This document shows, piece after piece, positions 34,817 to 61,484 of a stretch of 64,000 nt of DNA. Under the pieces are notes generated by a model. The model saw nothing but the letters and a program-made list of their open reading frames with translations. It was not told the origin of the DNA and made no database searches. The translations under genes were made by a program, and so were the position numbers. Each line of letters opens with the position of its first letter. Position 1 is the stretch's first letter. The DNA lies in the NCBI RefSeq assembly GCF_002261475.1, contig NZ_NEVN01000011.1, positions 62,001-126,000 of the forward strand, written 5' to 3'. The stretch is from Bordetella genomosp. 5 (GTDB taxonomy: Bacteria > Pseudomonadota > Gammaproteobacteria > Burkholderiales > Burkholderiaceae_B).

Positions 34817-35920
34817 TCAGGGGGTACGCAGCACGGACGGCAAGAGCAGCCACCCCGGACGGCGCCACGAAACCAGGCGCATGTACAGCCAGGTGTAGAC
34901 GCCGGCGAACACGAGGAGACTGGCGCACAACGCCCAGGCGTTGTCCCACCAGATCGTGGCCGGCACCAGGCCGATGAGCGCCAGCACCCACATATAGGGC
35001 GAAGCCAGCGCGTTGCACAGCGCGGGGACGGCATGACGCCGGCCGCGCGAGAACGTCACGCGCACCAGCCGGCGGAAGACCAGTTGATGCAGATGCAACG
35101 CGTCGGGCTGATCGACCGGGACGCCGCGCTTGAAGCGGCGGCGCCAGATCGAAAAGCCGGTTTCGAAGACGGGATAGAACAGCACGGCGAGCGCGTAGAA
35201 CGGCGACACCGACGGATTGCGGACCACCAGCAGCACGGCCAGCTCGGCCAGCATGAAGCCGAGGAAATAGGCGCCACCGTCACCGAGAAACACACGGCCG
35301 AACGGGAAGTTCCAGACCAGGAATCCCAGCGTGGCGGACGCCAGTGCGGCCGACACCATGAAGATGGGCATGTCGCCGACCTGCAGCGCCACGAGGCTGA
35401 TCGAAATCGCCATCAGGGTGGCGACCATGCCGGCGAGGCCGTTCATGCCGTCGACGATGTTCAGGGCATGCGTACAGCCGCCCACGGCGAACATCGTGAA
35501 CAGCAGCGAGACGGGCCAGTAGGCGAGGATCATGTCGACCCAGGGCATGCCCACGCGGCTCACGCCGCCGAGCAGCCACCAGGCGATGGCCGCCGACGCG
35601 AACGCGGCGAACAGGCGCTTGCTCGCGCCGATATCCTTGGTGATGTCTTCGAGCAGGCCCGCCACGAACACGGGCAGCGCCGACACGAACAGCGCGGGCC
35701 ACAGCCAGGTCAGGGTCATGTTGCTGGGACCGAGCACCAGCAGACCGGCGAGCGAACCCGCGAGCACGGCCAGCCCGCCGACGCGCGGCGTGGCGCGCGA
35801 ATGCGAGGCCTGGGGTTTGTTGAGATCGCTGTCGCCAGTGAATGCGCCATGCCAGCGCTCTGACGCCACGATGAGTCCCCCCACCATGAACGCGACCACG
35901 CATATGTACAGCCAGGTCAC
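34817..35920 (-). CDS. WecA-type undecaprenyl-phosphate sugar-phosphate transferase
   Basis: A 367-aa integral membrane enzyme of the MraY/WecA family with about 10-11 helices. It has SDLNKPQASHSRATPRVGGL (the DxxN/K and R-GG segment), the catalytic NIVDGMNGLAGM and FLGDGGAYFLGFMLAE. The cytoplasmic HxH segment reads ALHLHQLVFRR. It starts glycan assembly by transferring a HexNAc-1-phosphate to undecaprenyl phosphate at the inner membrane. Start is GTG 35920 with AAAGGTG 5 nt upstream. It is the first gene of the operon and lies behind a plausible promoter. Confidence 0.9.
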   Translation of the reverse strand: MTWLYICVVAFMVGGLIVASERWHGAFTGDSDLNKPQASHSRATPRVGGLAVLAGSLAGLLVLGPSNMTLTWLWPALFVSALPVFVAGLLEDITKDIGASKRLFAAFASAAIAWWLLGGVSRVGMPWVDMILAYWPVSLLFTMFAVGGCTHALNIVDGMNGLAGMVATLMAISISLVALQVGDMPIFMVSAALASATLGFLVWNFPFGRVFLGDGGAYFLGFMLAELAVLLVVRNPSVSPFYALAVLFYPVFETGFSIWRRRFKRGVPVDQPDALHLHQLVFRRLVRVTFSRGRRHAVPALCNALASPYMWVLALIGLVPATIWWDNAWALCASLLVFAGVYTWLYMRLVSWRRPGWLLLPSVLRTP

Positions 35921-36252: not shown

Positions 36253-36287
36253 TTAAAAAAAAGCCCGAGATCGTAAGATCTCGGGCT
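36253..36287 (-). terminator. rho-independent terminator of the small RNA
   Basis: Minus-strand AGCCCGAGATC and GATCTCGGGCT form an 11-bp perfect stem with a 4-nt loop, followed by eight Ts (36262-36255). The U-run is of Hfq-sRNA quality. Confidence 0.9.
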
Positions 36288-36450
36288 AAATCCACCAAAG
36301 GAGGAGGGTGGAGGAGACAACCGTGGCACACCGGGATGTGGGCTGGGAGCTAGGCTCTGGACCCCCTGGGGGGCAGCCCGGACATCCTTGCGAGGGGAGC
36401 GCTGCATCTTGCTTTGTCGCTCGGACCGCACTCGCGTTTCGGCATCCGTT
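36253..36450 (-). ncRNA. candidate small RNA with CUCCUCC hairpin loop
   Basis: A free-standing transcription unit of about 198 nt with no convincing reading frame. On the minus strand it has its own promoter (36485-36457), a predicted start near A36450, and ends at a perfect intrinsic terminator. Shortly before the terminator, CCACC and GGUGG pair around the loop CUCCUCCUUU; with the preceding GUCUCCUCC this gives two anti-Shine-Dalgarno stretches. A CCGGGCUGCCCCCC-AGGGGG hairpin lies in the middle. Such C-rich loops are used by several small RNAs to sequester ribosome sites. A betaproteobacterial 'toxic small RNA' family with anti-SD character has been reported; I cannot test membership here. 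Neighbours are coq7 upstream on the same strand and the glycan operon downstream. Confidence 0.65.
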
Positions 36451-36456
36451 GAATGA

Positions 36457-36485
36457 ATAGTAGCGCAGCGTTTTGTGCAATGCAA
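36457..36485 (-). promoter_or_regulatory. strong sigma-70 promoter of the small RNA
   Basis: Minus-strand TTGCAT (36485-36480) and TACTAT (36462-36457) are separated by exactly 17 bp. The next A at 36450, 7 nt past the -10 box, is a suitable start. No ribosome site or gene follows before the terminator. Confidence 0.7.
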
Positions 36486-36669
36486 GATTTTTTTGAGCGA
36501 CCGCCCTTGCATCTTGTTGCTGTTGGGTCGACGCATCAGCTGGGCCGCTCACCGGCCGCAGAAGCGCAGCCAGCCTGCGTCTCGCGGACGCGGGGGTAAT
36601 GCCTCAAAGGGAAAACCCTTGCGCACTTACCCTAGGAAATTCAAGCACTTGAGACGGGGCCGAGAATGA

Positions 36670-36751: not shown

Positions 36752-37429
36752 TCAGATCCGATAGGCCGCCGTGGTCATGACCTTGGACATGGCCCGCATG
36801 GCGGCCTTGACCGGACCAGGCAAGGGAACGGCGCCGGCGCGCTCGGCACTGGTGCGATGCCCGATCTCGTCGACCTTCATCTGCTGCACGACCTCGCGCG
36901 ACCGTGCGTCGGCCGGCGGCAGGATGCGCAGATGCTCGTCGAGGTGCGCCTCGACCTGGCGCTCGGTCTCGGCCATGAAGCCGAGATTGCGCGGCACGCC
37001 GGCCACGCTGGCGAGCACGCCCAGCGCAAACGAGCCGGCATACCAGACAGGATTCAGCAGGCTGGGCCGGCTGCCGAGCTCGCGCAGCCGCGTGTCGCAC
37101 CACGCCAGGTGATCGACCTCTTCGGCGGCGGCCTCGAGCAGGAGCTCGCGCGCGGCGGGCTCGCGGCAGACGGAGGCCTGGCCGCGATACAGCGCCTGCG
37201 CGCAGACCTCGCCGACGTGGTTGACCCGCATCAGACCGGCGGCGTGACGCTTGTCGGCCTCGGACAGCGACTGAGGCGCCTCGTCGGCCCGGGCCGGATA
37301 CGGCCGGCCGGCCACCGCGCTGCGCGACAGCACCTGCAATGCGCAATCGATCTCGCCCAGGAGGCCATCGAGCGGCCCCGCGCGCCGGGTCAGGGGGGTG
37401 AAACCTGGGGCGGAACGGGCGTACGACAT
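36752..37429 (-). CDS. coq7: 2-polyprenyl-3-methyl-6-methoxy-1,4-benzoquinone monooxygenase
   Basis: Coq7 performs the C6 hydroxylation in ubiquinone synthesis using a di-iron centre. The 225-aa product is a ferritin-like four-helix bundle with ligands in [15 protein letters not shown] (Glu), EEVDHLAWC (Glu, His), [14 protein letters not shown] (Glu) and [11 protein letters not shown] (Glu, His). Coq7 replaces UbiF in many betaproteobacteria and pseudomonads. It is divergent from osmC across 143 bp. Confidence 0.95.
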
Positions 37430-59924: not shown

Positions 59925-61025
59925 TTACGAGTGTTCGACGGCTTTGCCGTTACGCACGAAAGGCAGTTTCACGACCTGGGCGGGCACCCACTTGCCACGG
60001 ATATCCACCTCGACGGTGTCGCCGGGTTTGGCACCGGCCGGCAGACGCGCGAACGCGATCGACACGCCCAGCGTGGGCGACATGGTGCCGCTGGTGATCT
60101 CGCCTTCGCCCTGGGCGCCGCGCACGGTCATGTGCGCGCGCATCACGCCGCGCTCGTTGAGCTTCAGGCCCAGGAAGGCGGCCGGCGTGGCGAATTGTTC
60201 GATGGCATCCCGGCCGATGAAGCGGCGCTCGGCGTCCTTGCTCCAGACGGTCCAGGTGAGGCCGGCCTGATTGGGGTGGATGAGCTCGTCCATATCCTGG
60301 CCGTAGAGGTTCATGCCGGCTTCGAGGCGCAGCGTGTCGCGCGCGCCCAGGCCCGCGGGACGCACGCCCTGCGCGGTGAGGTCTTGCCACAGCGCGACCA
60401 CGTCGGCCGCGGGCAGGACGATCTCGAAGCCGTCTTCACCGGTGTAGCCGGTGCGCGCCACGAGCGTGTCGTCGCCGACGAAGGCGCCGTTGAACGGGGC
60501 CAGGCCCTCGGTGGCGGCCTGCCAGTCGGGGCGTGCGGCCCAGACCTTGGCGCGGGCGTTGGGGCCCTGCACGGCGATCATGGCGAGGTCGCGGCGCGGC
60601 GCGATCTGCACGTCGAAACCTTCGGCGCGCGCCACGCGCTGCATCCAGGCGATGTCTTTGTCGGCGGTGCCGGCATTGACGACCACGCGGAAGCGATCGG
60701 CCGCGAAGAAATAGATGATCAGATCATCGATGATGCCGCCCTGCGGGTTCAGCATGCAGCTGTAGAGGGCGCGGCCGGGCGTGGTGAGCCGGGCGACGTC
60801 GTTGGCCACCAGGCGGCGCAGGAAATCGGTGGCGCCGGCGCCGGTGACGTCGACATTGAGCATGTGGGACACGTCGAACATGCCGGCATCCTGGCGCACG
60901 GCGTGGTGCTCTTCGAGCTGCGAGCCGTAGGCGAGCGGCATGTCCCAGCCACCGAAGTCGACCATGCGGGCGCCAGCGGCGACGTGGGTGTCGGCCAGGG
61001 GGGTACGTTTGAGCGTTGCGGACAT
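59925..61025 (-). CDS. gcvT: aminomethyltransferase, T-protein
   Basis: The 366-aa T-protein releases ammonia and transfers the methylene group to tetrahydrofolate. It has [59 protein letters not shown] and the conserved [15 protein letters not shown]. The ATG at 61025 follows AGCTCCTCGC; the longer frame to 61385 covers the riboswitch and is not coding. First gene of the operon. Confidence 0.97.
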
Positions 61026-61111
61026 GCGAGGAGCTCCGGCGGTGTCAGAAGACGGACGTAGCCGGACCCGATAGCGGAAATCGCCCGGACGACCGGCTGG
61101 ATTTTCCGCCC

Positions 61112-61277
61112 CTCTGTCCTTTTGCCTGAGAGTTGCCCCGGCGGCGCTCGAACGAGGCCTTGCACGGGTTTGCACCTTCGGCGCCTGGTCGTACCGCCCC
61201 CGCGTGTATGGGGTGGGCGATGCCAGGTCTCTCCAGAGTGCCGTTACGACCGTACGCCAGGGGCGCCTCTCGGTCGT
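61112..61277 (-). ncRNA. glycine riboswitch (single aptamer with a 5' hairpin)
   Basis: On the minus strand the 5' UTR of gcvT carries CUCUGGAGAGACC (61238-61226), then GCGCCGAAGGUGCAAACCC, then AACUCUCAGGCAAAAGGACA followed by GAGGGG (near 61112). These are the conserved blocks of a glycine aptamer in the right order. Only one aptamer is present. Upstream, ACGACCG and CGGUCGU pair (61277-61271 with 61252-61246), a position where single-aptamer types carry a 'ghost' helix. It should switch the cleavage operon on with glycine. About 85 nt separate it from the gcvT start. Confidence 0.93.
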
Positions 61278-61484
61278 TGCAGTCGCGGTATGGGTTACCT
61301 GAGCGATTCCGGGCGAATTGCGCCTTCGGCGGCGAGGATCAACCTCGCTCTCTCCCGCGACATGCGTGACAGCGACGCGAAGCATACCGCGAAAGCGGGT
61401 CCGGGCGAAACTCGGACAGACCCGGTGCGGCCGCGGCGCGGGCGGCTCCGGGGCCCTTCCAAACGGGGCCCGAGCCAGGGCGGG
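61278..61484. other. gap between the gcv leader and the ZIP-gene terminator
   Basis: The gcv promoter must lie near 61278-61330 but no clear boxes stand out. At about 61440-61475, GGCTCCGGGGCCC and GGGGCCCGAGCC can pair around a short loop. No gene is supported here. Confidence 0.5.

Follow-up and report, generated by a model that had tools for sequence, protein, structure and literature searches.

A candidate PhaR operator and a covarying long-range stem in the gene of an S17-type small RNA of Bordetella genomosp. 5

Between coq7 and a gene for a family 4 glycosyltransferase, on the minus strand of a 64,000-nucleotide stretch of Bordetella genomosp. 5 (contig NZ_NEVN01000011.1; referred to here as the window), lies the gene of an S17-type small RNA, an orthologue of the already described Bordetella RNA S17, also named CT_433. 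Its promoter is overlapped by a predicted operator of the PhaR type, its long form closes into a long-range stem, and its 3′ part carries anti-Shine–Dalgarno stretches in front of an intrinsic terminator (Table 1). We consider it likely that the gene, the stem, cleavage by RNase E, anti-Shine–Dalgarno repression with Hfq and a PhaR switch sensing polyhydroxybutyrate (PHB) together make up one explanation of this locus. The PhaR operator at the S17 promoter and the covarying stem of the long form were not found in the literature searched and are the new parts of this explanation.

Table 1 Features of the S17-type gene and its two neighbours, with positions in the window
Feature	Position	Strand	Basis or remark
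coq7, upstream neighbour of the S17 gene	36752..37429	-	PF03232, E 8.3e-43
-35 box, TTGCAT	36480..36485	-	Identical to the mapped promoter hexamer of B. pertussis S17
PhaR-type operator (predicted), TGCATTGCACAA	36473..36484	-	Dyad TGC-RNY-GCA plus CAA; overlaps the -35 box and the first spacer positions
-10 box, TACTAT	36457..36462	-	17 bp from the -35 box; hexamer and spacing as in B. pertussis S17
Long form, about 196 nt	36255..36450	-	Start 7 bp past the -10 box, by 5′-RACE analogy with B. pertussis
5′ stem arm, GGAUGCCG	36440..36447	-	8 pairs; covariation
3′ stem arm, CGGUGUGCC, one bulged G	36325..36333	-	Just before the processing point; folding, covariation
Short form (S17S-like), 66 nt	36255..36320	-	RF02278; 5′ end set, by analogy, from the B. 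pertussis RNase E cut
Site 1, UGUCUCCUCC, mostly single-stranded anti-Shine–Dalgarno stretch	36310..36319	-	Functional in B. pertussis (PMC11722255)
First hairpin, with loop CUCCUCCUUU (Site 2) at 36306-36297	36291..36312	-	Family model, folding
Intrinsic terminator stem-loop, 11 pairs, T-run to 36255	36262..36287	-	Mechanical scan; perfect inverted repeat
Glycosyltransferase family 4 gene, downstream neighbour of the S17 gene	34817..35920	-	PF00953, E 4.8e-30

The 3′ part matches the family RF02278 over the whole of its model (positions 1–64 of 64) at 36255–36319 on the minus strand, with a score of 69.3 bits against a gathering threshold of 50 and an E value of 6.8e-12 in the Rfam search of the whole window. 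A preliminary description of this DNA, made from its letters, had placed a small-RNA gene at 36253–36485, guessed at a betaproteobacterial family of toxic small RNAs with anti-Shine–Dalgarno character and proposed such a search; the promoter, the two CUCCUCC stretches, the hairpin and the terminator are all present as it gave them, and the guess at the family is borne out by the Rfam score and agrees with the work on Bordetella pertussis. The match is the single one found in its own genome, and 48 of 61 genomes (this one and 60 relatives) contain a match; searches of plasmid and phage collections returned none.

In B. pertussis, S17 is located between BP3151 (glycosyltransferase) and BP3152 (coq7), and RNase E yields a 67-nt form from the 190-nt primary form; the RNA is Hfq-dependent and directly represses BP2158 through Site 1 (PMC11722255). 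Under the name CT_433 the same RNA is a RIL-seq hub of the Hfq interactome (PMC12235514). The gene in the window likewise sits between coq7 and a glycosyltransferase gene and has a TTGCAT/17 bp/TACTAT promoter and a long form of about 190 nt; its intergenic place, promoter hexamers, 17-bp spacing, long-form size and Sites 1 and 2 are those reported for S17/CT_433 (PMC11722255; PMC12235514), from which it differs in belonging to another Bordetella genome and in a leader that varies among relatives in sequence and length. We assign it as the orthologue of the described RNA because the RF02278 match, the neighbours, the promoter hexamers with their spacing and the length are as in B. pertussis S17, so that what had been put forward as an overlooked element was already on record. 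For the B. pertussis RNA at the equivalent place, the transcript, its processing, the involvement of Hfq and target repression have been demonstrated by others (PMC11722255; PMC12235514), the repression being Hfq-dependent and at ribosome-binding sites (PMC11722255). By analogy, Hfq binding, RNase E processing and all other behaviour of the RNA would be the same in Bordetella genomosp. 5.

The sigma-70 rule of a mechanical scan returned no promoter in the region, and the promoter is assigned on the basis of hexamers and a spacing identical to those of the 5′-RACE-mapped B. pertussis S17 promoter, together with conservation. Exact TACTAT is present in nine of 30 family loci, among which the -10 hexamer has 12 forms overall. 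In the 3′ part, CUCCUCC occurs twice on the minus strand, at 36316–36310 and, within the hairpin loop, at 36306–36300; the arms of the first hairpin, UCCACC and GGUGGA (36312–36307 and 36296–36291, minus strand), form six pairs that are invariant in 27 sequences. Folding gives -28.6 kcal/mol for the 66-nt 3′ part (z = -6.62; none of 200 shuffles as low) and -81.2 kcal/mol for the 196-nt form (z = -3.42; one of 200 shuffles as low).

Conservation, read from 14 genus loci and 30 family loci (the 30 best-scoring among 61 genomes), is concentrated in three blocks, namely the operator–promoter, roughly 20 nt of the long form's 5′ end, and the region from about 15 nt before the processing point through the terminator, with a middle part that is variable among relatives. 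Persistence of the promoter, loop and terminator in relatives, put forward as a check in the preliminary description, is part of this pattern. According to PMC12235514, good conservation outside the closest bordetellae is confined to the 3′ region, and since that account names only this region, the operator–promoter and 5′-end blocks are an addition. Two TGCATCTTG repeats lying 105 bp apart and flanking the promoter (36403–36411 and 36508–36516) were considered as operators and set aside as unconserved in relatives.

Distant parts of the long form pair in a long-range stem that shows compensatory changes; its consensus is 5′ GGAUGYYG with 3′ CRRCAUGCC, with one bulged G. In an alignment of 27 of the 30 loci (L030, L002 and L028 were omitted as unfit for the paired motifs, which favours the stem), pairing is kept in 96.3% of 216 cells, with six sequences breaking the last pair and two breaking one inner pair. 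Ten cells are changed on both sides, confined to two pairs; one pair is U-A in 14 sequences and C-G in seven, and the next is C-G in 22 and U-A in three. The covariation score of 0.208 exceeds all 500 shuffles (mean 0.147) and all slid versions (maximum 0.091), and the ten cells changed on both sides likewise exceed all 500 shuffles (mean 4.1) and the slid versions (maximum 4). Counted as pairs changed on both sides (2, shuffle mean 1.4) or as further pair types (6, shuffle mean 5.4), the signal is reached by 217 and 222 of the 500 shuffles, respectively.

RNAalifold alone recovers seven of the eight stem pairs, and the stem also appears when the window RNA is folded by itself. Nine further family genomes are independent of its discovery: all eight pairs are present in six of them, and the motif is absent in three (G061, G028 and G327), as it is in three second copies (L049–L051); one of the six pairs through GGAUGUUG/CAACAUGCC. 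The published mfold drawing of S17L (PMC11722255) may already contain the stem, to which conservation and covariation are added here. Since a few nucleotides separate the end of the stem from the mapped cut of RNase E downstream, the stem probably presents the cut point, and it suggests a concrete way in which the long form could be offered to RNase E.

Read at 36484–36473, TGCATTGCACAA fits the PhaR consensus TGCRNYGCASMA, which was derived in Bradyrhizobium by DNase footprinting and gel shift (PMC6201568). Compared with the PhaR palindrome of Ralstonia eutropha, YTKNTGCRNYGCANMAR (PMC12849132), the window site differs in two of 17 letters, counted by eye, both in the left arm. In Sinorhizobium meliloti, where the PhaR motif is similar, PhaR shifts the promoter from which the small RNA MmgR is made, and MmgR is overproduced when phaR is lost (PMC12542648; PMC8401924). 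The conserved promoter block is TTGCRNYGCACAA, with the core TGCRNYGCA in 30 of 30 family loci and the 12-mer TGCRNYGCASMA in 28; these sites were picked with CTTGC[AG]NNGCA, which fixes those columns by construction, and in columns free of the picking pattern the T two before TTGC is kept in 29 of 30 and the final A of the 12-mer in all 30. In this genome, one core is present within 220 nt upstream of the S17 body. Because 31 of 5000 dinucleotide shuffles of this 220-nt upstream produce the 12-mer, the single case weighs little, and the weight lies in recurrence.

The genome encodes one PhaR (PF07879, E 1.5e-31; TIGR01848, 162.1 bits against 109.45). Phasin genes are the classic targets of PhaR, and upstream of the only phasin match in this genome are two full sites that, judged by eye, lie on either side of a promoter resembling TTGACA/TAGAAT. 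The core is found upstream of the phasin gene in 29 of 30 genomes, this one included, against a mono-nucleotide shuffle mean of 0.56. Across the genome, TTGCRNYGCASMA occurs 29 times, most of them within frames, as against 11 for the reversed pattern, and TTGCANYGCACAAA with one mismatch gives four matches, one of which is a phasin site. A strict operator scan of 15 genus genomes, allowing at most one mismatch, returned 95 matches against 58 for the reversed control; 14 of the 95 are the S17 site (13 without mismatch), and a few of those with one mismatch are, by coordinates, phasin sites (G001, G005 and G013).

Co-occurrence of operator and PhaR was followed through 300 genomes of the order, of which 188 carry the RNA (RF02278) and 203 carry PhaR. 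The best 107 of the 188 were examined over 220 nt upstream of one best copy each, with 81 genomes of weaker match lying outside; those absent from the 203 PhaR matches count as PhaR-less (29), and the 78 with PhaR consist of an earlier 38 minus G056, which has no core, plus 41 (36 new and five of the own family). The core is present in 61 of 78 upstreams with PhaR and one of 29 without (Fisher 5.6e-13), and the 12-mer in 54 of 78 and none of 29 (Fisher 6.4e-12), both values ignoring kinship; the genomes are not independent, because PhaR follows phylogeny. Counted by family, the 12-mer appears at least once in 16 of 19 families with PhaR and in none of 10 without. Among the 64 dyads of the form XYZ-RNY-Z′Y′X′, the TGC dyad is found in 61 of the 78 PhaR-bearing upstreams and the runner-up in eight. 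The smaller set of 61 genomes has RF02278 and PhaR together in 46, neither in seven, the RNA alone in two and PhaR alone in six.

Four families (f1, f9, f43 and f36) hold both PhaR states. The contrast is clean in f1, with the core in nine of nine genomes with PhaR and absent from the one without, and weaker in f9 (six of seven against none of one), where the genus of the PhaR-less genome includes one member with PhaR and no core (G175) and another with the core only at -189 (G330). No contrast is seen in f43, in which both PhaR-bearing genomes also lack the 12-mer, and f36 consists of one genome with PhaR and an incomplete one without, which bears the core. The only PhaR-less genome with a core, G157, has a completeness of 85% and belongs to a genus in which two genomes carry PhaR. 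At the best RNA copy the core is missing in 17 of the 78 PhaR-bearing genomes; second RNA copies in four genomes with a coreless best copy have the core in three.

In 23 of the 61 core-bearing genomes TTGCRN has a -10-like hexamer behind it at a distance of exactly 17 bp, and in four at 18 bp, any other spacing from 8 to 25 bp being found in at most two genomes each; 34 have no such hexamer at 17 or 18 bp. By these counts, fusion of the operator with the -35 box is frequent but not universal. In five of the 61 the core lies 30–36 nt upstream of the RNA body, two of them having a matching -10, and transcription in these genomes could begin directly at the 5′ end of the short form; in loci of the Alcaligenaceae type the equivalent 5′ end would come from cutting of the leader.

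The S17 level in B. pertussis depends on BvgAS through a postulated repressor (PMC11722255), for which PhaR is the best candidate on the strength of the consensus fit, the PhaR gene, the phasin sites and the co-occurrence of the 12-mer with PhaR. Judged from the sequence, PhaR most likely binds and represses the S17 promoter, with the response running in the direction set out below. A joint treatment of PhaR with a Bordetella small RNA was not found in the open-licence literature searched, and the main texts of the RF02278 papers in it do not name PhaR as a regulator, PHB appearing only in a reference title.

With S17 itself published, TTGCRNYGCACAA might be mere promoter sequence, or the site of some other regulator that co-occurs with PhaR. 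The phylogenetic clustering of PhaR and the BvgAS-dependent repressor postulated for B. pertussis (PMC11722255) are what such a reading would lead one to expect, but conservation extends past the -35 box into the spacer, yet the -10 box is free to vary among its 12 forms; moreover, the same dyad precedes the phasin genes of the same genomes and the 12-mer is missing from every PhaR-less genome examined, and we regard this reading as unlikely. A cellular toxin RNA in the toxin–antitoxin sense is an extremely improbable description of the gene. It would accord with the Rfam family name and with growth inhibition on overexpression, reported for Burkholderia members of RF02278 and seen as slowed growth with ncS27 (PMC5688073, PMC4603805); against it, the one copy here and the presence of RF02278 in most of the relatives point to a core gene, and S17S is reported to leave the exponential growth of E. 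coli BL21 unimpaired (PMC11722255). The word toxic in the preliminary description is a label that stems from overexpression in E. coli.

Contrary to the preliminary description, which saw no open frame, frames of 115, 88, 48 and 31 codons overlap the gene on the minus strand, and the long form could be a dual-function RNA encoding a small protein from a conserved ATG (32 residues in B. pertussis, 31 here). A 32-residue frame has been predicted in print (PMC11722255), and the ATG recurs in all 27 aligned loci, mostly followed by MSKR or MPKR. However, the frame from this ATG has 8 to 50 codons in 17 of the 27 loci, the own locus included, and runs without a stop to the end of the piece in ten, its sequence drifts beyond the first codons, and the conserved start falls on the stem's 5′ arm. 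As the frame is unconserved as a protein, the 32-residue peptide was rejected, and a coding role for the long form seems very unlikely.

In the preferred explanation, with PhaR as the switch, the housekeeping promoter would give the long RNA of about 196 nt, whose 5′ end the long-range stem would join to the nucleotides immediately ahead of the cut point. RNase E would strip the 5′ part, leaving a 66-nt RNA of two hairpins, and the free Site 1 and the loop Site 2 would pair, with Hfq, with Shine–Dalgarno regions, blocking translation of many transport and catabolism messages. When stored carbon is absent, PhaR would occupy TGCATTGCACAA over the -35 box; as PHB granules form, PhaR would be titrated away and the RNA made, which would turn down the uptake and breakdown of additional carbon sources.

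The published sigma-54-activator target match of S17/CT_433 is unseen here: among the sigma-54 activators of this genome (eight strong of 11 PF00158 matches) there is no complement of Site 1 or 2 of at least 8 nt, and one PF00158 activator has a 7-nt match, as counted in the stretch before approximate starts and without wobble pairs. Phasin messages were also considered as targets and rejected; GGAGGA precedes the chosen start in none of 30 phasin genes, which leaves an MmgR-like phasin target unsupported.

In Burkholderia, the double-hairpin RNAs ncS03, ncS05 and ncS27 are up 8.0-, 6.9- and 4.3-fold in glucose medium (PMC5688073, PMC4603805), a rise that fits release by carbon excess; these RNAs are also up in biofilm and starvation, and unrelated RNAs are up in glucose (PMC5688073, PMC4603805). 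The passages of those papers on the double-hairpin RNAs name no cause of the glucose rise. Bvg control of S17 is unexplained by PhaR unless PHB or PhaR itself depends on Bvg. A wider reading, to which we give even chances, is that the RNA serves as a reader of the carbon store throughout the Burkholderiales: PhaR released by PHB would free the RNA to close the ribosome sites of uptake and catabolic genes, PhaR-less lineages would have retained the RNA without the operator, PhaR would be the repressor in Bordetella, and some of the S17 response to Bvg would pass through PHB. PhaR control would couple a widespread translational repressor of uptake genes to the carbon store. The repressor of the promoter was left open by the S17 authors, and a named regulator with a 12-bp operator makes both this question and the cause of the Burkholderia glucose rise directly testable.

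Parallels to this arrangement are found in other known systems. The predicted control resembles that of S. meliloti MmgR, a trans-acting, Hfq-dependent small RNA whose promoter likewise bears a PhaR dyad, but MmgR, which is repressed by PhaR/AniA, is alphaproteobacterial and is reported to act on phasins (PMC12542648, PMC8401924). In the search with the MmgR family RF00519 the score is 17.6 bits against a threshold of 41 (E 0.31), and the RNA does not belong to that family; were the wider reading true, MmgR would follow the same logic although the family models keep it and RF02278 separate. R. eutropha phaP1, of the PhaR regulon, has the same dyad, with operators near housekeeping promoter boxes, and differs in being a protein gene with several sites (PMC12849132), as against one core in 220 nt here. 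The Burkholderia cenocepacia RNAs ncS03, ncS05, ncS27 and ncS62 share the two hairpins and the CU-rich free stretches complementary to Shine–Dalgarno sequences (PMC5688073, PMC4603805); there are four copies there and one here, and the leader of about 130 nt here is presumably cut off; ncS27 is also processed (PMC5688073, PMC4603805).

Some other features came up in the survey of the order. A dyad ATTAG-N6-CTAAT lies upstream of RF02278 in 12 of the 29 PhaR-less genomes (G049, G071, G079, G097, G115, G178, G200, G244, G262, G274, G292 and G304, in families f14, f35 and f43) and in none of the 78 with PhaR, perhaps reflecting another regulator, or kinship alone. Four genomes (G042, G091, G210 and G300) have seven to nine RF02278 matches each; multi-copy genomes carry the PhaR site at some copies only, and the loci L044 and L045 are about 380 bp apart. 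Weak second RF02278 matches in two genomes of the genus, G001 (C46:41748–41806, 31.4 bits) and G005 (C3:217605–217663, 32.5 bits), may be another CU-rich RNA, for example CT_521 of PMC12235514.

Elsewhere in the window, a 486-codon frame (59925–61385, minus strand, start unrefined) carries at its upstream end a pair of glycine riboswitch aptamers of RF00504, which score 59.2 and 54 bits and lie at 61104–61367 on the minus strand. The product of this frame is presumably a glycine cleavage T protein, which its sequence reads like.
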